Positions 39,950 through 54,193 of a stretch of 64,000 nt of DNA are shown here, one piece after another. Both the position numbers and the translations under genes were made by a program. Origin of the DNA: Pseudomonadota bacterium (GTDB taxonomy: Bacteria > Pseudomonadota > Alphaproteobacteria > GCA-2746255); contig JBFMHN010000004.1 of NCBI GenBank assembly GCA_040752895.1, forward strand, positions 1 through 64,000, read 5' to 3'. Under the pieces are notes generated by a model, which saw only the letters and a program-made list of their open reading frames with translations, was not told where the DNA came from and did no database searches. Each line of letters begins with the position of its first letter. Position 1 is the stretch's first letter.

Positions 39950-40023
39950 TGGGGCGTGGCCAAGTGGTAAGGCAACGGGTTTTGATCCCGTGATCGCAGG
40001 TTCGAATCCTGCCGCCCCAACCA
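39950..40023 (+). tRNA. tRNA-Gln (anticodon TTG)
   Basis: A cloverleaf of 74 bases including encoded CCA (40021-40023). Acceptor TGGGGCG pairs with CGCCCCA (40013-40019), discriminator A at 40020. The anticodon stem ACGGG/CCCGT encloses the loop TTTTGAT, giving anticodon TTG (39982-39984), which reads CAA. The TTCGAAT T-loop is standard. It marks the edge between the core genes and the glycan cluster. Confidence 0.96.
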
Positions 40024-40490: not shown

Positions 40491-40503
40491 TTCACATTGT
40501 GAA
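40491..40503. promoter_or_regulatory. Operator candidate 1: TTCA-N5-TGAA
   Basis: TTCACATTGTGAA, a perfect palindrome around a single central base, 10 bases before the -35 box of the predicted promoter. First of three copies of the same half sites. Confidence 0.6.
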
Positions 40504-40512
40504 TTTCAAACC

Positions 40513-40541
40513 TTGACCATGCCCGCGGCGGGTGATATTCA
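40513..40541 (+). promoter_or_regulatory. Predicted sigma70 promoter of the glycan operon
   Basis: TTGACC (40513-40518), 17-base spacer, TATTCA (40536-40541). Transcription would start near 40548, so the leader is about 30 bases before the regulator ATG. The second operator overlaps the -10 box and the third covers the start site, the classic layout of a repressed promoter. Confidence 0.5.
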
Positions 40542-40550
40542 AATTCTGAA
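40538..40550. promoter_or_regulatory. Operator candidate 2: TTCA-N5-TGAA
   Basis: TTCAAATTCTGAA. It has the same TTCA and TGAA half sites and the same 5-base spacer as operators 1 and 3, and it overlaps the predicted -10 box. Confidence 0.58.
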
Positions 40551-40551
40551 T

Positions 40552-40564
40552 TTCACACCATGAA
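40552..40564. promoter_or_regulatory. Operator candidate 3: TTCA-N5-TGAA
   Basis: TTCACACCATGAA, beginning 14 bases after operator 2 and ending 12 bases before the regulator ATG. It would sit at the predicted transcription start. Confidence 0.58.
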
Positions 40565-40576
40565 TGAGAGCGCCCC

Positions 40577-41221
40577 ATGACCGGCAAGCCGAAGGCGCAC
40601 GCCGAGCTCGACTTTCTAGCCGCGATCGAACGGGGCGAGATCGTCACCCAGATGACGTTGCGGCGGCAGATCGGGGTGTCCGTCGGCATGGTCAATGCGC
40701 TGGTAAAGCGGGCCGTTGGCAAAGGCTATGCGAAGGTGAGCCAGGCGCCCTACAAGCGCTATGCTTACTACCTCACGCCGCGGGGGTTTACCGAAAAGAG
40801 CCGGCTGGTTGCGGAATATCTGGAAACTTCGCTCGATTTCTTTCGCGCTGCCCGCAGCGAGTATGCCGAAATCTTCGTACGCACCCAGCATATGGGCGTG
40901 AACAGAATTGCCTTGGCGGGCTGCGGCGAGCTCACGGAGATCGCGGTGCTGGCCGCCCTCGGCGAAGGCGTCTCGATCGATGCCATTCTTGAGCCCGAGG
41001 CGAACGAGGCCGAACGGTATGGTGTCAGGATTATCCGAGACCTGTCCGAGGCGCCCGCCATCGACGTGGTGATCATCACCGAGACGAAAGCGCCACAGGC
41101 CGCCTACGAACAGATGTGCGCGGCTTTTGGCGCGGCGCGGGTCTTTGCGCCGCCGCTGCTGCGCATCACGCCGAACCGGCGAGAGCTGATTGCCAGGGCG
41201 GGGCAGGAGGAGAACGCCTGA
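40577..41221 (+). CDS. Winged-helix transcriptional regulator with Rossmann-like C-terminal domain
   Basis: A 214-residue protein. The N-terminal 75 residues form a winged helix of MarR/ArsR type (ELDFLAAIERGEIVTQMTLRRQIGVSVGMVNALVKRAVGKGYAK, then a YYLTPRG wing). Residues 105-205 look like a nucleotide-binding Rossmann fold (RIALAGCGELTEIAVLAAL, then IDAILEPEANE), so it may sense a nucleotide sugar or cofactor. Three palindromes lie around its own promoter, so autoregulation is likely. It is the first gene of the glycan operon and its stop overlaps the start of the RfaH-like gene. Ribosome site weak (GAGAG). Confidence 0.82.
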   Translation: MTGKPKAHAELDFLAAIERGEIVTQMTLRRQIGVSVGMVNALVKRAVGKGYAKVSQAPYKRYAYYLTPRGFTEKSRLVAEYLETSLDFFRAARSEYAEIFVRTQHMGVNRIALAGCGELTEIAVLAALGEGVSIDAILEPEANEAERYGVRIIRDLSEAPAIDVVIITETKAPQAAYEQMCAAFGAARVFAPPLLRITPNRRELIARAGQEENA

Positions 41222-41718
41222 TGCGCTGGTACGTGGTCTGTTGCCAGGCTCGGCAGGAAGCGCGCGCCGATCTCAACCTGCGCCGCCAGGGTTTCGAGTC
41301 TTGGCTGCCCCGCTTGCGGTGGACGCGGCGCCATGCGCGGCGTGTCGATAACGTGCTCGTGCCATTGTTTCCCGGCTATTTGTTCGTGCGCTTGGGTCTG
41401 GACGTTCATCTGTGGCGTTCGATCAACGGCACGTTTGGCGTGCGCCGCCTCCTCTGCGAGAACGAGCGGCCGGCGCCGGTCGCCGCAGGGTTTGTCGAGA
41501 CTCTGCGGGAAACCGTAGACGAAGAGGGCCTGGTCGTCGCACCGCAAGACGCCTTCAAGTGCGGCGATCCCGTGCGCCTGATCGCGGGGCCGTTTGCCGA
41601 CATGGTTGGTACGCTCGCGCGCTTGACCGACAAGGACCGGGTCGCGGTGCTGCTGAATGTGCTGGGGCGTGAGGTCCAGGCGATAGTTTCGCGCCGCGTA
41701 CTGATACCGGCCGGCTGA
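41221..41718 (+). CDS. RfaH-like NusG paralog, transcription antitermination factor
   Basis: A 165-residue NusG-family protein. The NusG N-terminal domain starts MRWYVVCCQARQE and contains PLFPGYLFV at 48-56 and INGTFGVRRLL at 69-78, as in RfaH (PLFPNYLFV, INATRGV in E. coli). The C-terminal KOW domain spans about 112-162, with VAVLLNVLGREVQAIV aligning to the RfaH LLLNLINKEIKHSV segment. Specialised NusG paralogs keep RNA polymerase going through long polysaccharide operons. It follows the regulator by overlapping stop and start, and an ops-like element lies 83 bases after its stop. The general nusG would be elsewhere. Confidence 0.88.
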   Translation: MRWYVVCCQARQEARADLNLRRQGFESWLPRLRWTRRHARRVDNVLVPLFPGYLFVRLGLDVHLWRSINGTFGVRRLLCENERPAPVAAGFVETLRETVDEEGLVVAPQDAFKCGDPVRLIAGPFADMVGTLARLTDKDRVAVLLNVLGREVQAIVSRRVLIPAG

Positions 41719-41845: not shown

Positions 41846-42955
41846 ATGGCTGCTCCCCTCAAGGTTCACCTGATCGCAGGGGCGAGACCGAATTTCATGA
41901 AGGTCGCGCCGCTGTGGCACGCGCTCGCGCGCACGACCTGGTGCGCGCCCGCGCTGGTACACACCGGGCAGCACTACGATGACGCGCTCTCCGGCCGCTT
42001 GCTGGAGGAACTTGGGCTTCCGCACCCGCACCACGCGCTTGGCGTGGGCAGCGGAAGCCATGCGGAGCAGACGGCCAAAGTCATGATCGGCTACGAACGC
42101 GTGCTTGAGGAGGCGCCGGCTGATTTGGCGGTGGTGGTCGGGGATGTCAATTCGACGCTGGCGGCGGCGTTGGTGGCGGTCAAACGTGGCGTAGCGGTCG
42201 CGCACCTGGAGGCCGGGTTGCGCAGCGGCGACCGCGCCATGCCCGAGGAGATCAACCGCATCGTAACCGATTCGGTGGCGGATATTCTGTGGACGCCGTC
42301 GCCGGACGGCGATGAAAATCTCGTCCGCGAAGGGGTGTCAAAGACGCGCATTACCCGCGTCGGCAACATCATGATCGATGCCTTCGAGTTGATGCGCCCG
42401 CGCATCGCCGCCGATGAAACGGTGCGCCATTTGCGCCTTGCCGAGGGGCGATACGGCGTTGTCACGCTGCACCGGCCCTCGAATGTCGATGACGTGGCGC
42501 AGTTGACTGCCATCGTCGATGCGTTGTGCCGGATAGCGCAAGAATTGCCTCTCGTATTTCCGGCGCACCCCCGCACCCGCGCGCAACTCGCTCAGGCGAA
42601 ACTCGACGATCGGTTGGTGGGCGGCGGGGTAACGCTCATCGACCCGCTCGGCTATGTCGGTTTCATGCGGCTTGTGACAGGGAGCCGCATTGTGGTGACG
42701 GATTCCGGCGGTGTGCAGGAAGAGACATCGTATTTGGGCATACCCTGCCTCACTCTGCGCGCCACCACAGAACGCCCGATCACGGTAACGCATGGCACGA
42801 ATCGGTTGGTAGCCGCCGATACCTTGCTTGCGGCGATGGCGTCCGCCGCACCACGCCGCCGGCCTTCCGCGATTCCGCTCTGGGATGGCGCAACCGCTTC
42901 GCGCGTGGTCGCCGACATCGCGCATCGCTTTGCCGTCGGGCGTCATGCCGCCTGA
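41846..42955 (+). CDS. wecB: Non-hydrolysing UDP-N-acetylglucosamine 2-epimerase
   Basis: A 369-residue GT-B fold epimerase that interconverts UDP-GlcNAc and UDP-ManNAc, or a 3-substituted uronic acid version (WbpI-type). Motifs: AGARPNFMKVAPL, HTGQHYDD, VVGDVNSTLAAAL, HLEAGLRSGDRAMPEEINR, VTLHRPSNVDD and TDSGGVQEETSYLG. The start is the ATG at 41846; the frame is open back to a GTG inside the ops-like site, but that start would lack a family N terminus. First structural gene of the glycan operon; overlaps the next start by 11 bases. Confidence 0.92.
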   Translation: MAAPLKVHLIAGARPNFMKVAPLWHALARTTWCAPALVHTGQHYDDALSGRLLEELGLPHPHHALGVGSGSHAEQTAKVMIGYERVLEEAPADLAVVVGDVNSTLAAALVAVKRGVAVAHLEAGLRSGDRAMPEEINRIVTDSVADILWTPSPDGDENLVREGVSKTRITRVGNIMIDAFELMRPRIAADETVRHLRLAEGRYGVVTLHRPSNVDDVAQLTAIVDALCRIAQELPLVFPAHPRTRAQLAQAKLDDRLVGGGVTLIDPLGYVGFMRLVTGSRIVVTDSGGVQEETSYLGIPCLTLRATTERPITVTHGTNRLVAADTLLAAMASAAPRRRPSAIPLWDGATASRVVADIAHRFAVGRHAA

Positions 42956-44249
42956 CAGCGCTGTCTTGGACCTTGTCTCCGCGCGGGCCGATTACGCCGT
43001 GGCGATTGTGGTGCAGGGTGTCCCGCACCCCAGCGAAGGGGCGAGCGCCGTCCTGTTTTTCCAGTATGCCAAGGCGATTGCCGATGCGGGCTACCGTGTC
43101 ATGACCATAGTTCTTGCGCCGCAAGGCGCCGAAACCACACGTCAGCTATCGCGCTATGAAGACGCAATAAACCATGCCTCGCACGTGGTCCGCCAAATCC
43201 CGATTCGGGGCGCGGTGGTTCGCCCCAGCCGTTTCGGCTTGCAGGTCGATGGGGCGGCGATTGCCGGTGTCGGCCGGGTATGGGACGACGTTGCGCCGGA
43301 CGCCATCGTTGCCTTCGATGTCGGCCCGGCGCGGTGTGCGGCCGGCGTCTCTGGCGGCAAGCGGATCGCCTGGCTCGGCGATCTCGGGTTCGAGTCGAAC
43401 TGGTACCACTATCTCTATGGCTTCAAGGAGGACTGGATGTTGCTGCGGCGTCTGCCCTACGCCCTGGCGCAGACGGCGGCGTGGAAGCGGTTTTATCGCA
43501 CGGCGCTTTCCGGGTTCGATCGCCTTATCGTGGCCTCCAAGTCGTCGGAGCGTCCGCTTGGGCGCTTAGGCCTTGCCGCGCATTTCGCACCCTATCCCTG
43601 GCCGGAAGCCAAGGGCCGTATCGCCGGTCCGCGCCGTGGCCCCAAAGAGAAGCCCCGGTTCTTGTTCTATGGGCATCTCTCCGGGCTTGGCTCCCGCTCG
43701 GCGCTGCATTTCCTTTGCGACCGCCTCTATCCGGAACTTGTGGCGGCGTGGGGCGAGGACGGGTTCGAGATCGTCATCGGCGGGCGGGAGCCGCCGCCGG
43801 CGTTTTTTGCGGCCAAGATCGATCGCCTTCCAGCGCTTTCTTGCGTCGGTTTTATCGAGGATTTGGATGCGATGATGACCACGGTTCACGCGGTGATCGC
43901 GCCGCTTGATGTGCCGGTCGGCAACCGCAGCCGCCTGTTGACCGCCATGGCGAAGGGCGCATTGATCGTCGCGCATGAAAATGCGGCGCTTGGCAATCCG
44001 ATGCTGGTCGCAGGGCAGACGGCGCTGCTGGCGCGCGATGCGGCCGGGTTTGCGCGGCACATGCGTTTGGCGGCGCAGGATCCGGACGCTTGTGCGGCCA
44101 TTATTGATCGGGCAGAAAAGGCGTATCTTGAACACTATGCGCCGGCGGCGGCGGCGCGCGCTCTTGTGCAAGCCATTGACGAAGAGTTGAAGATCGCCCT
44201 CACCCCCAAGACGGCGACCGCCAAAACGGTCCAGGGAAAAACGGAATGA
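42945..44249 (+). CDS. Glycosyltransferase, GT4-like
   Basis: A 434-residue GT-B glycosyltransferase: VVQGVPHPSEGASAVLFFQYAKAI at the N terminus, a donor domain with FLFYGHLSG at about 240, and the GT4-type C-terminal region (DVPVGNRSRLLTAMAKGALIVAHENAALGNP). The donor and acceptor are unknown. It begins inside the last codons of the 2-epimerase gene and its stop overlaps the next start, so it belongs to the operon. Confidence 0.82.
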   Translation: MPPDSAVLDLVSARADYAVAIVVQGVPHPSEGASAVLFFQYAKAIADAGYRVMTIVLAPQGAETTRQLSRYEDAINHASHVVRQIPIRGAVVRPSRFGLQVDGAAIAGVGRVWDDVAPDAIVAFDVGPARCAAGVSGGKRIAWLGDLGFESNWYHYLYGFKEDWMLLRRLPYALAQTAAWKRFYRTALSGFDRLIVASKSSERPLGRLGLAAHFAPYPWPEAKGRIAGPRRGPKEKPRFLFYGHLSGLGSRSALHFLCDRLYPELVAAWGEDGFEIVIGGREPPPAFFAAKIDRLPALSCVGFIEDLDAMMTTVHAVIAPLDVPVGNRSRLLTAMAKGALIVAHENAALGNPMLVAGQTALLARDAAGFARHMRLAAQDPDACAAIIDRAEKAYLEHYAPAAAARALVQAIDEELKIALTPKTATAKTVQGKTE

Positions 44250-45505
44250 CGACACATCACGACTTGCCGTTGGGCAAAATTGACCATTGCCAGGTCTGCG
44301 GGGGCCGCAATCTGCACGATGTGCTGGATCTCGGGCATCATCCGCCGTGCGACAGTTTGCTCTGGCCGCGTCAATTGGACGAGGCCGAGAAAACCTATCC
44401 GTTGCGATTCCAGGTCTGTCGGGATTGCTCGCTCGGGCAAATCGACTATGTCGTATCGCCCGAGGTGCTATTCTTCCCGGACTACCCGTACCGGAGCGGC
44501 ATTACCGCGACACTCGTTGAAAAGCTCAGCAAGACCGCCGTATCGACTCTTGCGCGCTTTCCGCTGCCCGAAGGCAGCCTGGCCATGGATATTGGCTCCA
44601 ACGACGGCACGGTGTTGATGGCGTTCAAGGAGCGCGGCATGCGCGTGCTTGGGGTGGAGGCAACCAACATCGCCAAGATCGCCAATGAAAGCGGCATCGA
44701 AACCCTGCAGGCGTTCTTCGACGAAAGGCTCGCCGACCGGATCGTTGCGAGTCATGGCCAGGCTGGCTTCATAACCGCGACCAACGTGTTCGCGCACGTC
44801 GCGGGACTGGGGGGCATCCTGCGTGGGGTCTCCAAGCTGTTGCAGGATGGCGGGGTGTTTGTGACCGAGTCCCACTATCTGCTCGATCTTCTCGCGACCA
44901 CGCAGTACGACTCGATCTATCACGAGCACCTTCGCTACTACACGCTGAAGTCGCTCATTCGGCTTTTCGATCAGTACGATTTCACCGTCACGGATGTCGA
45001 GCGTATCGACAACTATGGCGGATCGGTCCGGGTGTTCGCCTGCAAGGGAAAGGGCCTTCCGGTTTCGCGCGCGGTCACGGATTTGTTGGCCGAAGAAGAA
45101 GGGGCGGGGCTCTATGGGACCGAAGTGTATGACCGTTTCGCCGAACAAACCCGCAAGGCGCGGCGCGATCTCCTGGCCCTTGTCATCGGCGCGAAGGCGG
45201 CGGGCAAGTCGGTTGTCGGGATCGGCTGCCCCGGCCGTTGCAGCACGCTTCTCAACTACACCGGCCTTGATCCGGACCTGATGCCCTACATCGCGGAGCA
45301 GCCCACGTCGCTAAAGCTTGGCCTGTTTCTGCCCGGCAAGCACATCCCCATCGTTGATGAGAAACGCATGTTCAAGGAGCAGCCGGACTACGCGATCATG
45401 TTGTCCTGGCACTATGCCGAGCCGATTATCCGCAAGCTCCGCGAAAAGGGGCTGAAGTCGACGATCGTCGTGCCGCTTCCCGATGTGCGCGTGTTTGAGG
45501 GCTGA
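44246..45505 (+). CDS. Sugar C-methyltransferase, class I SAM-dependent
   Basis: A 419-residue protein with three parts: an N-terminal zinc-binding segment (CQVCGG at 15-20 and CRDCSLGQIDY at about 58-68), a central SAM-binding Rossmann domain (LAMDIGSNDGTVLMAF), and a C-terminal domain (around GIGCPGRCSTLLNYTGL). This layout is that of NDP-hexose C-methyltransferases such as TylC3 and EvaC. The sugar methylated is unknown. ATGA overlap with the upstream glycosyltransferase. Confidence 0.88.
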   Translation: MTTHHDLPLGKIDHCQVCGGRNLHDVLDLGHHPPCDSLLWPRQLDEAEKTYPLRFQVCRDCSLGQIDYVVSPEVLFFPDYPYRSGITATLVEKLSKTAVSTLARFPLPEGSLAMDIGSNDGTVLMAFKERGMRVLGVEATNIAKIANESGIETLQAFFDERLADRIVASHGQAGFITATNVFAHVAGLGGILRGVSKLLQDGGVFVTESHYLLDLLATTQYDSIYHEHLRYYTLKSLIRLFDQYDFTVTDVERIDNYGGSVRVFACKGKGLPVSRAVTDLLAEEEGAGLYGTEVYDRFAEQTRKARRDLLALVIGAKAAGKSVVGIGCPGRCSTLLNYTGLDPDLMPYIAEQPTSLKLGLFLPGKHIPIVDEKRMFKEQPDYAIMLSWHYAEPIIRKLREKGLKSTIVVPLPDVRVFEG

Positions 45506-45506
45506 A

Positions 45507-46628
45507 GTGGGCCATCTCGACGGCACCGCCAAAGGCCAGTTGCGGATCGGTGTCATTGGCATGGGTTTTGGGGCGGGCGTTCACCTTCCGGCGCTCGGCA
45601 CGCTCGCCAACGTCGTGGTTTCGGGAGTGGCCGACGCCGGCTCGGGGCGGGCCCGGATCGCGGCCGCGAAGTACGCGCCTCGGGCGCGTGTGTTCGATAA
45701 CGGGCACGCCCTTGCGGAATGGCCGGGAATCGACGCCGTCAGTATCGCGGTGCCGCCCCGCCAGCAAGCCGCGATCGTGCGGACCGCGATCGATGCGGGC
45801 AAACATATACTTTGCGAGAAACCCTTCGGCGCCGGCCTTGATGAGATCACAGGGCTTGCCGCGGACGCCATGGGCAAGGGGCTGGTGACGGCGATCGGTT
45901 ACGAATTTCGCTATGACACGGCCATCGCCGCGCTTTGCAAAGCGGTGCGGGAGGGACGCATCGGGCCAGTCCGGCGGATTGCCGTGACCTGGCTGACGGG
46001 GGGTGGGCTCGACCCGAATCGCCCGTGGTCGTGGCGGCACGACGCGGGGGCATGTGGCGGCGTTCTCCTCGATTGGTGCAGCCACGTGATCGACTACGCC
46101 TTTTTGATCGCCGGCGCCGACGTGACGGAAATCTCGGCGCGGACGTCGATCACGGTACTTAAGCGGCCGGACGGCCGCGGCGGCGTGGCGGATGTCACGG
46201 CACCCGATAGCTGCGAGATCGCGTGCCTGTTTGCTAACGGCGTCGTCGGACGGTACACGGTGTCCAATGTGCAGGCGGCCGGCATCGGCCATAAAATCGA
46301 GGTCTATGGCGACAGCGGGCGGATCGTTTTTCACCATGCCCCGCCGTTCACCTCGCGCAGCAAGACGCTGACGCTATACGATTCGAACGATGAGGGGCTC
46401 GTGGTGCCGATTGCGGAAACCGGCGCCGCCGACGGCGAGGATGGCAACGGGGACGACCGCGTTGCCGCGTTTCGCGAACTGGCGCAGGATTTTTCCGCGG
46501 TCGCGCAAGGCAGCACCACCGCCGGCCGGTTCCCCGATTTTGCAGCCGGCGAGAGGGTTTGGCGGGTGCTGGAAGCGGCGCGAAACTCGGCCGCTCAAGG
46601 TTCGGCCATGCGAGTTCAAGCGGCGTGA
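45507..46628 (+). CDS. Gfo/Idh/MocA family sugar dehydrogenase (first copy)
   Basis: A 373-residue NAD(P)-dependent oxidoreductase: nucleotide-binding RIGVIGMGFGAGVHLPAL, then AVSIAVPPRQQAAIV and the catalytic lysine in HILCEKPFGA. Such enzymes oxidise nucleotide sugars, for example at C3 in WbpB/WlbA. Start: the GTG at 45507 follows GAGGGCTGA; an ATG at 45483 is also possible. Overlaps the cytidylyltransferase as GTGA. A second copy follows two genes later. Confidence 0.86.
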   Translation: MGHLDGTAKGQLRIGVIGMGFGAGVHLPALGTLANVVVSGVADAGSGRARIAAAKYAPRARVFDNGHALAEWPGIDAVSIAVPPRQQAAIVRTAIDAGKHILCEKPFGAGLDEITGLAADAMGKGLVTAIGYEFRYDTAIAALCKAVREGRIGPVRRIAVTWLTGGGLDPNRPWSWRHDAGACGGVLLDWCSHVIDYAFLIAGADVTEISARTSITVLKRPDGRGGVADVTAPDSCEIACLFANGVVGRYTVSNVQAAGIGHKIEVYGDSGRIVFHHAPPFTSRSKTLTLYDSNDEGLVVPIAETGAADGEDGNGDDRVAAFRELAQDFSAVAQGSTTAGRFPDFAAGERVWRVLEAARNSAAQGSAMRVQAA

Positions 46629-47362
46629 CCGTCGTTCAACCCGGCAAACCGACTGGAAAGCGCGCCCGGATTTTCGCGATAGTTCAAGCGCGCATGTCCT
46701 CAAGCAGGCTTCCCGGGAAAGTGCTGAAGTTGGTTTGCGGAAGACCCATGCTTTCCTATCTGCTGGACCGATTGAAACAATGCGGGGAACTGGACGGCGT
46801 GATTCTCGCAACGTCCGACCAGGCGGCCGATGATCCGATCGCGGACTTTGCGGAGAAGGCTGGTATCGGCTGCTACCGAGGGAGCCTTGAAGACGTGGCC
46901 GGTCGTCTAGTGGCGGCCGCAGACATGGTTGCGGCCGAAGCTCTTGTCCGCGTCAGCGGCGACAGCCCGCTTTTGGATAGCGCATTGGTCGATAGGCTTG
47001 TGGCGATGTTTCGGAAAAAGGATTCAGTCGATCTCGTGACAAATGTGCAGAAACGAACTTTTCCGAAGGGGCAATCGGTCGAAGTCCTGGCGTTGGAAAG
47101 TTTGCGACGGGTTCATCGATCGGAGTTGAGCCGTAGTGAGCGAGAGCACGTCACATCTCACTTCTACCGGCATCCCGATCGGTTCCGCATCGTCAACGTG
47201 GAACACGAAGCGCCGCTCGGGTCGCTTCAGCTTTCCATCGACACGGCAAGTGACCTCGACCGCTTCGAGGCCTTGCTGGGTGTTCTCGGAGAGCCTGTGC
47301 AGGAGCATGGGTTGGGCGCCGTGGTGGCCGCGGCGCTTCGGTTGGAGGCCGTGCGGGTTTGA
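46625..47362 (+). CDS. SpsF-type cytidylyltransferase
   Basis: A 245-residue nucleotidyltransferase of the SpsF/acylneuraminate cytidylyltransferase family. The nucleotide-binding motif is IVQARMSSSRLPGKVL, followed by LVRVSGDSPLLDS. It would activate a sugar acid or polyol as a CMP derivative. Start is a GTG overlapping the previous stop. A NeuB-type synthase gene lies downstream in the same operon, a natural partner for a CMP-nonulosonate synthetase. Confidence 0.83.
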   Translation: MTVVQPGKPTGKRARIFAIVQARMSSSRLPGKVLKLVCGRPMLSYLLDRLKQCGELDGVILATSDQAADDPIADFAEKAGIGCYRGSLEDVAGRLVAAADMVAAEALVRVSGDSPLLDSALVDRLVAMFRKKDSVDLVTNVQKRTFPKGQSVEVLALESLRRVHRSELSRSEREHVTSHFYRHPDRFRIVNVEHEAPLGSLQLSIDTASDLDRFEALLGVLGEPVQEHGLGAVVAAALRLEAVRV

Positions 47363-48366
47363 CGGTGACAAAAGTCAAGGCGGGAATCATCGGGCTTGGC
47401 GTCGGCGAAAAGCATATCGACGGGTATCGTGCGAGCGACGCGGCCGAGGTGATCGCCCTTTGTGACAGCGACCCCGCGAAGCGCGATATGGCAAAGAAAA
47501 AATATCCGGATTGCCGTGTGTATGACAACGCAGAAGCCCTCATAGATGACCCCGATGTCACCGTGGTTTCCGTTGCCAGTTACGATCACCAACACGCCGC
47601 CCAGGTGGTGCGGGCCTTGGACTGTGGGAAGCACGTATTCTCGGAAAAGCCACTGTGCACCAGCGAAGAGGACTATGTTTCCATCCGCCGGGCGCTGGTG
47701 CGCAACCCGGGTCGAAGGCTCTCGACCAATACGGTTCTGCGAATGAGCGAGCGTTTTCGTGACGTCCATGCGCGTATTCGCGCAGGCGACCTTGGTCAAC
47801 TGTACTGCGTCGAGGCGGACTACAATTATGGCCGGCTGCACAAGGTCCTGGATGGTTGGCGGGGCGATATTGCGGACTACTCCGTCATGCTTGGCGGCGG
47901 CGTTCACATGGTGGATCTGCTGCTGTGGCTGACGGGAAGTGGCATCGTCGAAGTTAGTGCGGTCGGCAACAAGATATGCAGCGCCGGCGCGAAATTCACG
48001 ACCCCCGACATGGTGGTTGCGTGGCTAAAGTTTGGTAACGGCGCGATCGGAAAAGTCGGCGTCAATTTCGGCTGCGTGCAGCCCCATTTCCACCGTGTTT
48101 TACTCTATGGCACAAAGGCGACGTTCGAGAATGCGCTCCCGTCGGCGTTACTCTACCGCTCGCGTGATGCGAGTATGCCGCCGGAGAAGATCGAGTCCGC
48201 TTACCCGGGGGTCGACAAGGGCGATTTGCTGCCAAGCTTTGTCGATGCCATTCTCGGCCGTGGCCTGGCCCTGGTGGAAGAAGCCGATGTTTTTGCAGCA
48301 ATGTCAGCCTGTCTAGCGATCGAAAGATCCCTGCGGACCGGCAAACCGGAACACGTGCGTAACTGA
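47359..48366 (+). CDS. Gfo/Idh/MocA family sugar dehydrogenase (second copy)
   Basis: A 335-residue oxidoreductase with VKAGIIGLGVGEKHIDGY and the catalytic lysine in HVFSEKPLCTSEED. It differs clearly from the first copy in sequence. The TTG at 47359 has GGAGG ten bases before it and overlaps the cytidylyltransferase stop; a GTG two codons later is possible. Together with the DegT aminotransferase that follows, it fits a ketosugar-forming step that is then transaminated. Confidence 0.86.
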   Translation: MTVTKVKAGIIGLGVGEKHIDGYRASDAAEVIALCDSDPAKRDMAKKKYPDCRVYDNAEALIDDPDVTVVSVASYDHQHAAQVVRALDCGKHVFSEKPLCTSEEDYVSIRRALVRNPGRRLSTNTVLRMSERFRDVHARIRAGDLGQLYCVEADYNYGRLHKVLDGWRGDIADYSVMLGGGVHMVDLLLWLTGSGIVEVSAVGNKICSAGAKFTTPDMVVAWLKFGNGAIGKVGVNFGCVQPHFHRVLLYGTKATFENALPSALLYRSRDASMPPEKIESAYPGVDKGDLLPSFVDAILGRGLALVEEADVFAAMSACLAIERSLRTGKPEHVRN

Positions 48367-48369
48367 AAA

Positions 48370-49533
48370 ATGTCCGACGGCTCTACGCGCAACCTACCAT
48401 TCGGCAAGCCGATCATCGGCGAAGAAGAGCGCAACGCGGTCATGGACGTGTTGCGGGGGCCGCAATTGGTTCATGGCCCGCGGGCCGAACGGTTCGAGGC
48501 GGATTTTGCGGCGTTTGTCGGGGGCGGCCGGGCGTTGAGCGTGGCCTCCTGCACGGCCGGCCTGCATTTGGCGTATGTCTATCTGGGCATCGGGCGGGGA
48601 GACGAGGTGATCGTGCCGGCCCAGACCCATGTCGCCACCGCTCACGCCGTTGAATATACGGGCGCCAAGCCGGTCTTTGTCGATGTCGTGGCGGAAACCG
48701 GCAATATTGACATCGACCAAATCGAGGCGGCTATCGGCCCCGGCACCAGGGCGATCTGCGTCGTTCACTATCTTGGCCTGCCGGTCGATATGGATCGGGT
48801 CAACGCATTGGCGAGAAAGCACGATTTGTTTGTCGTCGAGGATTGCGCGCTATCCATCGGCGGCCGCTATAAGGGTGTGCACACCGGGTTGCTCGGCGAC
48901 GTTGGCGCCTTCTCTTTTTATCCGGTTAAACACATTACGACAGCCGAGGGCGGCATCTTCCTCAGCCGGCGCCCTGAAATAACCGAGCAGGTTCAGAAGA
49001 TTAAGTCGTTCGGATACGACAAGCCGCTGGGGGAGCGGGTGGTGCCCGGCCTCTACGACGTGAATAGGCTTGGCTACAATTACCGCATGAACGAAATGGA
49101 GGCCGCCCTCGGCATCGAGCAGTTGAAACGGGTTCCCGGTTTCCTGCGCAAACGCCGGGAAAACGACGCGGTTTTGCGCCATGAACTGGCCGACATCCGC
49201 GAAATTTCTTTGCTCGGAGCGGGTGGCGGGGACTACGAACACGCCAACTACTGCATGGGTGTGGTGCTGAGCGAGGCAATCTCGAGCCGGCGTTTCGACA
49301 TCCTGGCGTCCTTGCGCAACGCAGGCGTAGGAACAAGCGTCTACTACCCCGGCCCTGTCCCCCATCTGACTTACTACAAGGAGAAATACGGCTGGGGCGC
49401 CGTTCCGTTCCCAAACGCCACGCGTATCAGCGACCAGTCGATCGCGCTTTCGGTCGGACCGCATCTTGACGGCGACGATATGTGTTATATCGCGGCCGCT
49501 CTTAAATCCGCCATCAAGGGAGCCCTTTCGTGA
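48370..49533 (+). CDS. DegT/DnrJ/EryC1/StrS-type sugar aminotransferase
   Basis: A 387-residue PLP-dependent aminotransferase that makes amino sugars from keto sugars. The PLP lysine is in FYPVKHITTAEGG, and the PLP-phosphate region is VASCTAGLHLAY. It follows a Gfo/Idh dehydrogenase by three bases and overlaps the NAD-dependent epimerase gene, so the dehydrogenase-transaminase pair is plausible as WbpB-WbpE (C3 amination). Confidence 0.9.
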   Translation: MSDGSTRNLPFGKPIIGEEERNAVMDVLRGPQLVHGPRAERFEADFAAFVGGGRALSVASCTAGLHLAYVYLGIGRGDEVIVPAQTHVATAHAVEYTGAKPVFVDVVAETGNIDIDQIEAAIGPGTRAICVVHYLGLPVDMDRVNALARKHDLFVVEDCALSIGGRYKGVHTGLLGDVGAFSFYPVKHITTAEGGIFLSRRPEITEQVQKIKSFGYDKPLGERVVPGLYDVNRLGYNYRMNEMEAALGIEQLKRVPGFLRKRRENDAVLRHELADIREISLLGAGGGDYEHANYCMGVVLSEAISSRRFDILASLRNAGVGTSVYYPGPVPHLTYYKEKYGWGAVPFPNATRISDQSIALSVGPHLDGDDMCYIAAALKSAIKGALS

Positions 49534-50564
49534 ATATTGAACTTCAAGGCAAGCGGATTGCGCTTATTGGGGGCGCTGGATTCATCGGCCACAATCTGGC
49601 GCTCAAACTGAAGGAGATGGGGGCGATCCCCCATATCATCGACAGCCTACAGGTCAATAATCTTGGGGCGTTCACCAGCGATTTCGAGACTAACGAAAAC
49701 GCCCGGTTGTATGTGGAATACATCAACGAGCGCCTGGATCTGCTGCGTAAAGCCGAGATCCCGCTACACATCGTCGATGCGCGTGATTACCACCTTCTCT
49801 CGCCGCATCTTGCGTCAACCAAGCCCGACGTCGTCATTCATTTGGCGGCAGTCGCGCATGCGAATAGGGCTAATAAGGACCCCTACCACACGTTTGATCA
49901 CAGCATGCGCACGTTGGAGAATGCCCTGGACAGTGTTCGCGGCTACATGCCCCAGTTCATTTATTTTTCCTCGTCCATGGTCTATGGGCATTTCGAAGGG
50001 GAGGCGGTGACCGAGGACCGGGTATGCCAGCCCCTCGGCATCTATGGTGCGCTCAAACACTCGGGCGAGACGCTGGTCAAGGCATACAACCAGGTGTTTG
50101 GACTGCCCTATACGATTATTCGTCCGTCGGCGCTCTATGGCGAGCGGTGCGTGAGTCGCCGCGTCGGGCAGGCTTTTATCGAGGGCGCCATCCGAGGCCG
50201 GAACTTGACCGTCAACGGCGACGGCTCGGACGAATTGGATTTCACATATATTCAGGACCTTGTTCGCGGCGTCGTTCTTTGCATTACGCGGGAGGAGGCG
50301 AAGAATCAGACATTCAACATCACGTATGGTTCCGCCCGTTCCCTGAAGCAGATGGCGGCAATTGTCATGAAGCATTTTCCCGGCATCGAATTGGAATTCA
50401 AGCCGCGCGACCAATTAATGCCCGAGCGAGGTACGCTAAGCATCGAGAAAGCCCGGAAACTCTTGGGTTACCGGCCGGCGTATTCGCTGGAAGACGGGTT
50501 TGTCGGCTATATCGAATGGTGCAAGGCGCTGGCGGCTCGTCGTCCCGATCTCTTTGGTGGCTAA
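49530..50564 (+). CDS. NAD-dependent epimerase/dehydratase (extended SDR)
   Basis: A 344-residue extended SDR. The NAD-binding GGAGFIGHNLALKL is near the N terminus and the catalytic YxxxK is YGALK in QPLGIYGALKHSGETL, with SSSMVYG as the serine/threonine part. The C-terminal region fits sugar 4-epimerases and 4,6-dehydratases; I cannot tell which. Start is a GTG overlapping the previous stop. Confidence 0.87.
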   Translation: MNIELQGKRIALIGGAGFIGHNLALKLKEMGAIPHIIDSLQVNNLGAFTSDFETNENARLYVEYINERLDLLRKAEIPLHIVDARDYHLLSPHLASTKPDVVIHLAAVAHANRANKDPYHTFDHSMRTLENALDSVRGYMPQFIYFSSSMVYGHFEGEAVTEDRVCQPLGIYGALKHSGETLVKAYNQVFGLPYTIIRPSALYGERCVSRRVGQAFIEGAIRGRNLTVNGDGSDELDFTYIQDLVRGVVLCITREEAKNQTFNITYGSARSLKQMAAIVMKHFPGIELEFKPRDQLMPERGTLSIEKARKLLGYRPAYSLEDGFVGYIEWCKALAARRPDLFGG

Positions 50565-50601
50565 TGCAGAGCCGCATCCAGGAAACGCATCTTATTTGCC
50601 G

Positions 50602-51348
50602 ATGAAGTTTAGCAGCACGGCCGATATCTGGCTGAGCGGTATTCTCGGGCGCCCGTGTTTCAACGTGCGGCATGTGTCCGGCGATTTGAGTGCGGATCAA
50701 CTCGTCGCCGGCTATGCGAAGCCCGGCATCTTCGCAGCCGCCAAGGTGCCGGCGATCGAGACGGCCGCTTCGCTGGAATTGCAGAAGGCCGGGTTCCGTC
50801 ATATCGAGATGGCGCTGACCCTTGACTGGCTTCACCCGGCGGTCGATTTCGAACTTTCGAGGGTCCGGTTCTCCGTTGCAAGCGACGTCGGCAGTGTTGC
50901 CGCCATTGCGGAGAGCGCCTTTCGTTATTCCCGGTTCCACATGGACGCGGCGATTCCAAATACCTTGGCAGACAAAGTAAAGAGAGCTTGGGCGGAAAAT
51001 TATTTCTCGGGCAAGCGCGGCGACGCCATGATCGTCGCAGAGGCCGATGGCCAGGTGGCCGGTTTCCTTCAACTGTTGCGCGGCCAGAACGGTGCGGTGG
51101 TCATTGATCTGGTGGCGGTGCACCCAAGTGCGGCCCGGCGCGGCTTGGCGCGCGAGATGATCGGCCTTGCCGCGACGCAAGGTATCGGGGACGGCGCGCC
51201 GGAGCGCCTTAGCGTCGGTACGCAGGCGTGCAACGTTGCATCGGTGGATTTGTATGAATCGATGGGGTTCCGGCTTGCCGGCGCACAGCACGTGCTGCAC
51301 TTCCATGGTCCCATGCCATCCGAATCCAGGGCGGGTCGGGCGTTATGA
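50602..51348 (+). CDS. GNAT-family N-acetyltransferase
   Basis: A 248-residue protein whose C-terminal half is a GNAT fold: VIDLVAVHPSAARRGLAREMIGLA gives the acetyl-CoA loop, followed by VGTQACNVASVDLYESMGFRLAG. The N-terminal half resembles that of WecD-type dTDP-fucosamine acetyltransferases. It would acetylate the amino sugar made by the DegT protein. The ATG at 50602 lies 37 bases after the previous stop. Confidence 0.84.
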   Translation: MKFSSTADIWLSGILGRPCFNVRHVSGDLSADQLVAGYAKPGIFAAAKVPAIETAASLELQKAGFRHIEMALTLDWLHPAVDFELSRVRFSVASDVGSVAAIAESAFRYSRFHMDAAIPNTLADKVKRAWAENYFSGKRGDAMIVAEADGQVAGFLQLLRGQNGAVVIDLVAVHPSAARRGLAREMIGLAATQGIGDGAPERLSVGTQACNVASVDLYESMGFRLAGAQHVLHFHGPMPSESRAGRAL

Positions 51349-52352
51349 GAATTGGCCACGTTGATCTTGACAGGGAAGTGCTTCTGATCGCCGAAATCGG
51401 CAACAACCATGAGGGGGACGTGGCACTTGCCGAAAGGCTTGTCGGACTCGCCGCAGAGGCCGGGGCGCAGGCCGTAAAATTTCAGACGATCGCGCCCGAA
51501 CGCCTTGTTTCCGCCGAAGATGAGGCAAGGGTCAGGCAACTTCAGAGGTTCGCCTTGAGTCGTCGGGACCATGAGCGACTGGCCAGGGCAGCGGAAAACG
51601 CCGGCGTGATTTTCATGTCGACGCCGTTTTTTCTTGAAGCCGTTGACTGGCTCGAATCCCTTGTTCCGGCGTTTAAGATCGCTTCCGGCGATAACGACTT
51701 CGATCCCTTGCTGGCGCGGGTGGCCGCGACGGGAAAGCCGGTTGTCCTGTCCACCGGTATGGCGACCCTTGAGGATATACGGCATGCGCGCTCCGTCCTT
51801 GGGTCGGTGTGGACGGAACGCGGGGTTCGGCCCGGCCTCGGACTTTTGCAATGCGTTTCGGCCTATCCGGCAGCCCCCGAAGCGGCAAACCTGGCGGCCA
51901 TGCACGCCCTGAGGCCATTGTGCGATGCCGTGGGCTATTCGGACCATACGCTGGGCAACGAAGTTGCCGTTCTGGCGGTCGCGGCCGGTGCGCAAATTAT
52001 CGAAAAACATTTTACGATCGACAAACAGTTCTCATCGTTCAGGGATCACCGGCTTTCGGCCGATCCTGTCGAACTGAAGCAGCTTGCCCAACGCATTCGA
52101 GAGGCATCGCGTACCCTTGGCCGCCCGGAAAAATATGTCGATGCAAGCGAGGCGCAGCTATCCATCGCTGCGCGGCGGAGCATTGTCGCGCGGCGGGACC
52201 TTGCGGCTGGGCACGTGATCGGGCTGGACGATCTGGACTGGTTGCGCCCAGCGGGCGGTCTTGCGCCGTGCAGAACGGCCGAAGTCCTGGGCAAGAAGCT
52301 GGCGCGGGACGTGCGTGGCGGCGAGCGCCTGGAACCGAATATTCTGCTCTGA
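51345..52352 (+). CDS. neuB: NeuB-family N-acetylneuraminate/nonulosonate synthase
   Basis: A 335-residue NeuB-type condensing enzyme: LLIAEIGNNHEGDVALAERL, KFQTIAPERL, PAFKIASGDNDFDPLL, LSTGMATLEDI and AVGYSDHTLGNEV, with a C-terminal SAF antifreeze-like domain (RRSIVARRDLAAGHVI). It joins phosphoenolpyruvate to a 2-acetamido hexose to give a sialic, legionaminic or related nonulosonic acid. No PseB/LegB dehydratase is visible, so the exact sugar is open. ATGA overlap with the GNAT gene. Confidence 0.9.
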   Translation: MRIGHVDLDREVLLIAEIGNNHEGDVALAERLVGLAAEAGAQAVKFQTIAPERLVSAEDEARVRQLQRFALSRRDHERLARAAENAGVIFMSTPFFLEAVDWLESLVPAFKIASGDNDFDPLLARVAATGKPVVLSTGMATLEDIRHARSVLGSVWTERGVRPGLGLLQCVSAYPAAPEAANLAAMHALRPLCDAVGYSDHTLGNEVAVLAVAAGAQIIEKHFTIDKQFSSFRDHRLSADPVELKQLAQRIREASRTLGRPEKYVDASEAQLSIAARRSIVARRDLAAGHVIGLDDLDWLRPAGGLAPCRTAEVLGKKLARDVRGGERLEPNILL

Positions 52353-52354
52353 CC

Positions 52355-54193
52355 ATGTGCGGGATAGCTGGATTTCTTGGTTCACGACCCCTCGCGGACG
52401 ACCGCCTCAAGGCGTGCCAGGCGTTGATGCGGCGGCGCGGACCCGACGCCGAGAATAGGGTTGCGTTAAGGACGCGATCGGGCAGCCACCTTCATTTGCT
52501 CCATTCGCGCCTTAGCATCATCGATCTGGATCACCGTGCAGACCAGCCCTTTTCGGTCGACGGGTGCGTTCTGTCCTACAACGGCGAGGTGTACAACTAC
52601 CCAGAGCTGCGCGCGGCTCTTGAAAAAGAGGGGGAGAAATTCTCGACCAGCAGCGATACCGAGGTTCTCGCCCGGCAACTCGTGCGCAAGGGGATCGAGG
52701 GCGTGCGGGCGTGCGAAGGCATGTGGGGATTCGCCTGGTACGACGCGAACACCGGCAGCCTCTATCTGTGCCGCGACCGTTTCGGCGAAAAGCCTCTCTA
52801 TGTGTATCGGAACGAGGAGGGGGTCTATTTCGGATCCGAGCCCAAGTTCATTTTTGCCCTTCTTGGAAGGGCGCTTCCCGTCAACCGGCGGCAGCTGTCC
52901 CGCTATCTCGTGAACGGATACAAGGCCCTCTATAAGACGCGGGAGACCTTTTTTGAGGGGCTGCACGAGGTGGCGGCCGGCGCTTATCTCGAATGCGACG
53001 GGCGGGCCGCAAAACCCGAGACGTTCTACTGGCGGCCGGCGTTTGACACCGAGCAGCAGGACATGTCCTACGACGAAGCGGTTGCCGGCGCGCGCGCCGC
53101 GCTGGTGCGCTCCGTCGAGTTGCGGCTGCGCGCCGACGTGCCGATCGCTTTCTGTTTGAGCGGCGGCGTGGATTCAAACGCGTTGATTTCGATCGCCAAG
53201 CGCCAACTCGGCTACGACGTGCACGGCTTCACCATCATGAATACGGATTCCCGGTACGAGGAACGAAGCATGGTCGAAACCGCGGTCGGCGACCTCGGCC
53301 TTCGGCACACCCAGGTGCCCGTTTCCACCGAGAACTTTCTGCCCAATCTGCGGACGCTGGTCCGTTATCACGACGCACCGGTCTACACCATTACCTACTA
53401 CGCCCAATGGCGTTTGATGGAGGCAATCCGCCAGGCGGGGTACAAGGTGTCGGTAAGCGGAACGGCCGCCGACGAACTCTTCAGCGGCTATTTTGACCAC
53501 CACAACGCGTACCTCGCCGCGATGCGGATCGAGGACGGGCGCCTCCATCGGCAGGCTCTGGAAGATTGGCGCTCGGTTGTGGCGCCCATCGTTCGCAATC
53601 CCTACTTACAGGATCCGGACTATTTCGTGAAATGCCCCGAATCCAGAGCCCATATCTATTTGGACGCGGCTCTGTTCGCCGCGTTTCTTACCCGGCCTTT
53701 CGATGAGCCCTTCCAGGAAGCCGCCTATGCCGGCTCGCTCTTGCGGAACCGCATGGCAAACGAACTGTTTCATGAATCCGTTCCGGTGATCCTGCACGAG
53801 GACGACCTGAACGCGATGTACTACTCCATTGAAAACCGGTCGCCCTTTCTCGATACGGCTCTGTTCGATTGGTGCCAAAGGATTCCAACCCGGCATCTGG
53901 TGAAGAAGGGGCGGGCCAAAGCCGTGTTGCGCGATGCCGTGCGCGGTCTTGCCCCGGATGCCATCGTGGACAACCCGCGCAAGGTGGGGTTCAACGCGCC
54001 AATGCACGGTTACCTTGATACGGGGTCCCGGGTGGTGCGCGACGCGTTGCTGGCTGACAGTCCGGTTTTTGATGTGATACGGCGCGATCGCGTTTCGGAA
54101 CTGCTGGATTTGGAGGAGTTTCCCAATAGCCGCAGCAAATTTCTGTTCAATTTTGTTTGCGCGAAGATTTTTCTGGAGGAATACGCGGCGTGA
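52355..54193 (+). CDS. Asparagine synthetase B-like amidotransferase
   Basis: A 612-residue glutamine-dependent amidotransferase: catalytic C2 in MCGIAGFLG followed by an N-terminal nucleophile glutaminase domain (to about 215; RGPDAE, LSIIDL, SYNGEVYNY), then an AsnB-like synthetase domain with the pyrophosphate loop S269GGVDS274. In glycan clusters such proteins amidate sugar acids rather than make asparagine. It overlaps the WbpG-type gene by four bases, so it may feed ammonia to it or act on the same sugar. The same frame is open upstream inside neuB; that part is ignored. Confidence 0.88.
   Translation: MCGIAGFLGSRPLADDRLKACQALMRRRGPDAENRVALRTRSGSHLHLLHSRLSIIDLDHRADQPFSVDGCVLSYNGEVYNYPELRAALEKEGEKFSTSSDTEVLARQLVRKGIEGVRACEGMWGFAWYDANTGSLYLCRDRFGEKPLYVYRNEEGVYFGSEPKFIFALLGRALPVNRRQLSRYLVNGYKALYKTRETFFEGLHEVAAGAYLECDGRAAKPETFYWRPAFDTEQQDMSYDEAVAGARAALVRSVELRLRADVPIAFCLSGGVDSNALISIAKRQLGYDVHGFTIMNTDSRYEERSMVETAVGDLGLRHTQVPVSTENFLPNLRTLVRYHDAPVYTITYYAQWRLMEAIRQAGYKVSVSGTAADELFSGYFDHHNAYLAAMRIEDGRLHRQALEDWRSVVAPIVRNPYLQDPDYFVKCPESRAHIYLDAALFAAFLTRPFDEPFQEAAYAGSLLRNRMANELFHESVPVILHEDDLNAMYYSIENRSPFLDTALFDWCQRIPTRHLVKKGRAKAVLRDAVRGLAPDAIVDNPRKVGFNAPMHGYLDTGSRVVRDALLADSPVFDVIRRDRVSELLDLEEFPNSRSKFLFNFVCAKIFLEEYAA

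Follow-up and report, generated by a model that had tools for sequence, protein, structure and literature searches.

Among the closest described counterparts of the locus reported here are the antiterminators of the UpxY, RfaH and LoaP type in polysaccharide operons. As in these systems, a gene for a NusG-like protein stands at the head of the operon that the NusG-like protein probably serves. In the present case, however, the antiterminator gene lies under a conserved operator and follows the gene of a conserved DNA-binding regulator; RfaH is described, in PMC7593976, as having no common gene neighbours. Two further families resemble the regulator itself. TIGR04176 MarR_EPS (MarR family EPS-associated transcriptional regulator, NCBIfam) has a homologous winged helix, but the regulator scores below the cut-off of that model, is twice as long and carries an extra Rossmann-like domain. 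Rex redox-sensing repressors share with it, as predicted here, an N-terminal winged helix combined with a C-terminal Rossmann domain, whereas this domain of the regulator matches succinyl-CoA synthetase and WbaP equally well and lacks a Rex match by sequence.

The locus lies in a stretch of 64,000 nucleotides (the window) from an alphaproteobacterial genome of 2.29 Mb. We propose, with a probability of roughly 85%, that the palindromes upstream of the regulator gene serve as operator for its 214-residue product, which would act as an autorepressor limiting expression of its own gene, of the antiterminator gene and of the glycan genes.

Putative operator copies and promoter ahead of the regulator gene

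Three TTCA-N5-TGAA palindromes with common half sites and spacer had been listed in the initial annotation, one flanking a TTGACC-17-TATTCA promoter, one overlapping its -10 box and one covering the probable start site. Sequence matching verified all three copies as exact (O1, O3 and O4 in Table 1), with no others in the window, and located both promoter boxes with the 17-bp spacer as described there. A fourth copy that was absent from this list, O2, is degenerate. The four copies are arranged as two tandem pairs with a step of 14 bp (40491/40505 and 40538/40552), and the regulator gene begins 13 bp after O4. The TTGACC-17-TATTCA promoter was not called by a strict sigma-70 scan, owing to the missing T at the end of TATTCA, which by its sequence would be a weak -10 box. 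About 470 bp 5' of the operator array we noticed a tRNA-Gln (TTG) gene (39950-40023, + strand) with no obvious gene in between; tRNA genes beside such clusters may indicate a point of insertion.

Table 1. Operator copies, promoter boxes and genes of the locus (positions in the window).
Feature	Position	Strand	Basis and remarks
O1, operator copy TTCACATTGTGAA	40491..40503	.	exact match; 9 bp 5' of -35; family conservation
O2, operator copy TTCAAACCTTGAC	40505..40517	.	degenerate, 1 mismatch; overlaps -35; 14 bp from O1
-35 box TTGACC	40513..40518	+	sequence; TTGAC frequent at fixed offset beside palindrome in orthologues
-10-like box TATTCA	40536..40541	+	sequence; 17-bp spacer to -35
O3, operator copy TTCAAATTCTGAA	40538..40550	.	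exact match; overlaps -10 and expected start site
O4, operator copy TTCACACCATGAA	40552..40564	.	exact match; in probable 5' leader; 14 bp from O3
Regulator, 214 aa	40577..41221	+	MarR-like winged helix (~9-98) and C-terminal Rossmann-like domain (~101-207)
NusG/RfaH-like gene (specialised NusG paralogue)	41221..41718	+	start overlaps regulator stop
UDP-GlcNAc 2-epimerase (WecB type)	41849..42955	+	TIGR00236, 283.6 bits
Rest of putative glycan (nonulosonic-acid-like) operon	42906..54193	+	domain matches

The product of the gene next to the regulator gene contains the NusG N-terminal domain (PF02357, 66.8 bits, above the cut-off of 22.2) and reaches 107 bits with the RfaH model TIGR01955, below the equivalog cut-off of 144.5. 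The genes behind wecB code for a glycosyltransferase, a C-methyltransferase, Gfo/Idh/MocA oxidoreductases, a cytidylyltransferase, a DegT aminotransferase, an epimerase, a GNAT protein, NeuB and an asparagine-synthase-like protein, a gene content that suggests synthesis of a nonulosonic-acid-type glycan. Since all of these genes lie on the same strand with short gaps, we infer a single transcription unit.

Short palindromes may happen to lie near a promoter by chance, and 2 of 100 shuffles of the whole window, in which 0.48 copies are expected, indeed reached at least three copies. This origin is nevertheless extremely improbable in view of the clustering of the copies, their tandem register and their conservation over 84 loci (see below), and it was rejected on the shuffles and on the family-wide count. 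When the 137-bp upstream region was shuffled 20,000 times with dinucleotides preserved, three copies never arose and two arose once, and three copies within 74 bp are expected about 0.0005 times per genome at the genome's own site density. The whole genome has 35 exact copies, 32 of them beyond the array. Frequent chance occurrence in other intergenic DNA, which had been named as a possible objection, is not seen: a single one of these 32 copies lies outside open frames of 100 or more codons, the other 31 inside, and about three quarters of the non-coding copies belong to this promoter, with the reservation that an open frame is no proof of a gene. The tandem pattern TCA-N5-TGA-N3-TCA-N5-TGA without mismatch matches twice in the genome, both times in this array, and a search of the same genome with tandem and double-site patterns found no second array.

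Conservation and co-occurrence with the regulator

Relatives of the regulator were collected from a sample of 385 genomes of its class, 77 of which have one (the window's genome is among these), and from nine named contigs, among them contigs of Chelatococcus, Hyphomicrobium and Kiloniella. Removal of near-duplicates left 84 loci including that of the window, the other regulators being 30-55% identical to the window's protein. In 74 of them an exact TTCA-N5-TGAA lies no more than 300 bp before the regulator gene. The ten remaining loci are mostly more diverged, and nine of these have a copy with one mismatch, typically GTTC-N7-GAAC; the palindrome is thus kept beside orthologous regulators, the place where the initial annotation had proposed to look for it. 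Among all 4-mer palindromes with gaps of 0-12, counted in the 250 bp upstream, TTCA-N5-TGAA ranks first (71 regions versus 0.33 in shuffles). Its density amounts to 5.93 per kb upstream of the regulator gene, as compared with 0.028 per kb over the remainder of these loci. The NusG/RfaH-like gene follows directly downstream of the regulator gene, with a gap of 0-51 bp, in 66 of the 84 loci.

The distances between copies are not random. They amount to 22-25 bp in most loci and to 33 bp in some, and several loci among those nearest to the window's have distances of 14 or 28 bp. TTGAC starts 6 bp before a palindrome in 46 of the 84 loci, and an alignment of 43 promoters reads TTGACG-TTCA-N5-TGAAC-G-N3-TA-N3-T with little conserved outside. 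In the commonest layout of the family, one operator fills the 18-bp spacer between the -35 and -10 boxes and a second operator abuts the -10 box. The array of the window has the 14-bp tandem form, not this 23-bp layout, and its copies are without the paired G...C flanks that are present in 106 of about 130 family copies. Three Chelatococcus promoters (L019, L020 and L022) contain three copies in 14-bp steps, of which the middle one is degenerate and ends in TTGAC exactly like O2, with the -35 box at the identical offset. Judged by sequence, these promoters link the 14-bp tandem form with the commonest form of the family.

The same layout bears on the direction of control. A palindrome that fills the 18-bp spacer, as is commonest in the family, can also suit a MerR-type activator, so that the regulator might bind its sites as an activator, or as activator and repressor, either by MerR-like remodelling of the promoter or by helping the polymerase from the upstream copy. 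We regard this as unlikely. The second family copy usually abuts or overlaps the -10 box and the start region, and the copies of the window overlap the -35 box, the -10 box and the start region, where a bound protein should block the polymerase. In addition, the TTGAC box is near consensus and should therefore need little help from an activator. Repression by the regulator fits these positions better.

The operator-promoter TTGACR-TTCA-N5-TGAAC also tracks the presence of the regulator in the genome sample, which was drawn over many families: it was found in 40 of 77 regulator-positive and in 0 of 308 regulator-negative genomes (Fisher 3e-33, a type of p-value that overstates the number of independent events because the genomes share ancestry). 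A looser double site occurs in 34 of the 77 and 5 of the 308 genomes, respectively. Two of the double sites in the five regulator-negative genomes, one at an alanine racemase gene and one at a GntR-type gene, were inspected; they are without the G...C flanks and were therefore taken as background. Before the GntR-type regulator gene (L161:1641-1680) the double TTCA-N5-TGAA is accompanied by TTGACA, possibly an independent use of a similar site.

By visual comparison of coordinates, 40 of the 47 places with TTGACR-TTCA-N5-TGAAC precede a regulator gene and 7 do not. Sites away from the regulator gene stand before RmlD-like and CapD-like genes in a genome congeneric with the window's (L159), before a gene for a hexapeptide-repeat acyltransferase (NeuD-like; L156), before a sulfotransferase and an asparagine-synthase-like gene, facing an ABC exporter-like gene (L157), before CapD-like, epimerase and NeuB genes (L207), before a CapD-like gene (L208) and before genes for a nucleotidyltransferase and a PIG-L deacetylase (L210). 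A site at a contig end (L158) repeats the promoter sequence of that genome's own regulator. In L209 (623-1552) the operator-promoter lies about 0.9 kb before an ABC exporter gene, without an open frame of at least 100 codons between them on that strand; the interval may be a long leader or contain a small gene. The autoregulatory operator set assumed in the initial annotation is consequently supported by the conservation beside orthologues and by the co-occurrence, but was too narrow a description, as other glycan genes also follow the promoter in several genomes.

Alphaproteobacterial LexA also reads GTTC half sites, which the family motif GTTC-N7-GAAC resembles. The sites could accordingly be owned by another factor (LexA, or one of the CRP/FNR or ArsR type, for example) and merely co-occur with the operon. 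However, the direct repeats expected for LexA, GTTC-N7-GTTC or GAAC-N7-GAAC, are present in 0 of the 84 upstream regions, and no GTTC-N7-GTTC repeat lies near the site of the window. The operator-promoter moreover follows the presence and the gene position of the regulator, and its half site is kept by related winged helices in other proteins (see below). Ownership by another factor is thus very improbable, and the regulator remains by far the better candidate.

The regulator and its winged-helix relatives

Residues 10-98 of the regulator match TIGR04176 with 47.1 bits (E 2e-12; cut-off 88 bits, not reached), and the Pfam family MarR_2 is matched with 20.1 bits (E 7e-4; gathering score 27 bits, not reached). 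All ten aligned orthologues match TIGR04176, and MarR_2 is likewise matched by ten of ten orthologues with a best E of 6e-5. A search of solved structures gave weak MarR matches only. Nearly invariant in the family are a helix of the predicted HTH and the stretch following it, APYKRYAYYLTP.

The AlphaFold model, built from ten sequences, is of low quality in the winged helix (pLDDT ~50) and good for residues 91-200, which appear Rossmann-like. Structural neighbours of this C-terminal domain at Z 9-10 include succinyl-CoA synthetase alpha, a WbaP domain and Rex-family repressors; the superposition on the Rex-family chain 3wg9_B has a Z of 9.4 over 94 residues with an rmsd of 3.1. Many Rex chains match at Z 8-9, and so do other Rossmann proteins. 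A Pfam scan of the C-terminal half alone returned nothing above cut-off, and the matches to CoA_binding_3, PglD_N and NeuD in orthologues are weak. The Rex family model gave no match to the regulator by sequence, MarR_2 alone being reported at E ≤ 0.1. Because the modelled residues 91-200 are Rossmann-like and have Rex among their neighbours, it is plausible that the C-terminal domain senses a ligand, as in Rex.

The half site extends beyond the long regulators. Of 18 loci with short TIGR04176 proteins, most of them belonging to other classes of the phylum, 15 carry GTTCA-N5-TGAAC in front of the gene. Most of the short members inspected have one operator, and a NusG-like gene was detected within 1.5 kb in 1 of the 18 loci. 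A further arrangement was noticed in one alphaproteobacterial family, where ATP sulfurylase and APS kinase domains are joined to a TIGR04176-like winged helix (L195-L205; for instance L196:1495-3285, + strand), and all 11 of these fusion genes have upstream the form GTTCA-N4-TGAAC or GTTC-N6-GAAC, with a gap of 4 instead of 5. The fusion resembles a sulfate-activation enzyme that regulates itself. The retention of the half site by related winged helices with different partners supports direct reading of GTTCA by the winged helix.

Proposed mechanism and significance

The following course of events would account for these observations. A dimer of the regulator presumably binds each TTCA-N5-TGAA through its winged helices. 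Occupied sites would cover the -35 box, the -10 box and the start region, denying access to RNA polymerase, and the regulator would thereby limit synthesis of itself, of the antiterminator and of the glycan enzymes encoded behind. The block is probably lifted when the C-terminal Rossmann-like domain binds a small molecule, which may be a nucleotide sugar, a CoA compound or an NAD(H) compound. The NusG/RfaH-like protein from the next gene would then aid the polymerase along the long operon.

A broader reading, which we put forward tentatively and hold to be slightly less probable than its opposite, is that of a widespread, undescribed control system for surface glycans in Pseudomonadota. One lineage of winged helices would read GTTCA in combination with different partners, namely none, a Rossmann sensor together with an antiterminator gene, or ATP sulfurylase-APS kinase, the gap changing from 5 to 4 in the last case. 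The regulator of the window would then be a metabolite sensor that gates initiation and, via the co-transcribed NusG paralogue, elongation.

An operator before the gene of its own regulator is ordinary; the family-wide pair of protein and site and its reach over glycan operons are new. In the open-licence papers that we searched, neither the motif nor the family name nor similar wording led to a description of the operator. The result equips a regulator family that has had no more than an automatic name with a signature for operator and promoter, and with so clear a half site, tests of binding and of ligands are simple to set up. With a simple pattern search, glycan gene clusters could be tied to one regulator over many unstudied Alphaproteobacteria. 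The constant pairing of regulator and antiterminator genes contrasts with the lack of common gene neighbours ascribed to RfaH in PMC7593976 and may therefore be useful to that field. The result as a whole also suggests that surface-polysaccharide operons are controlled jointly at transcription start and through antitermination.
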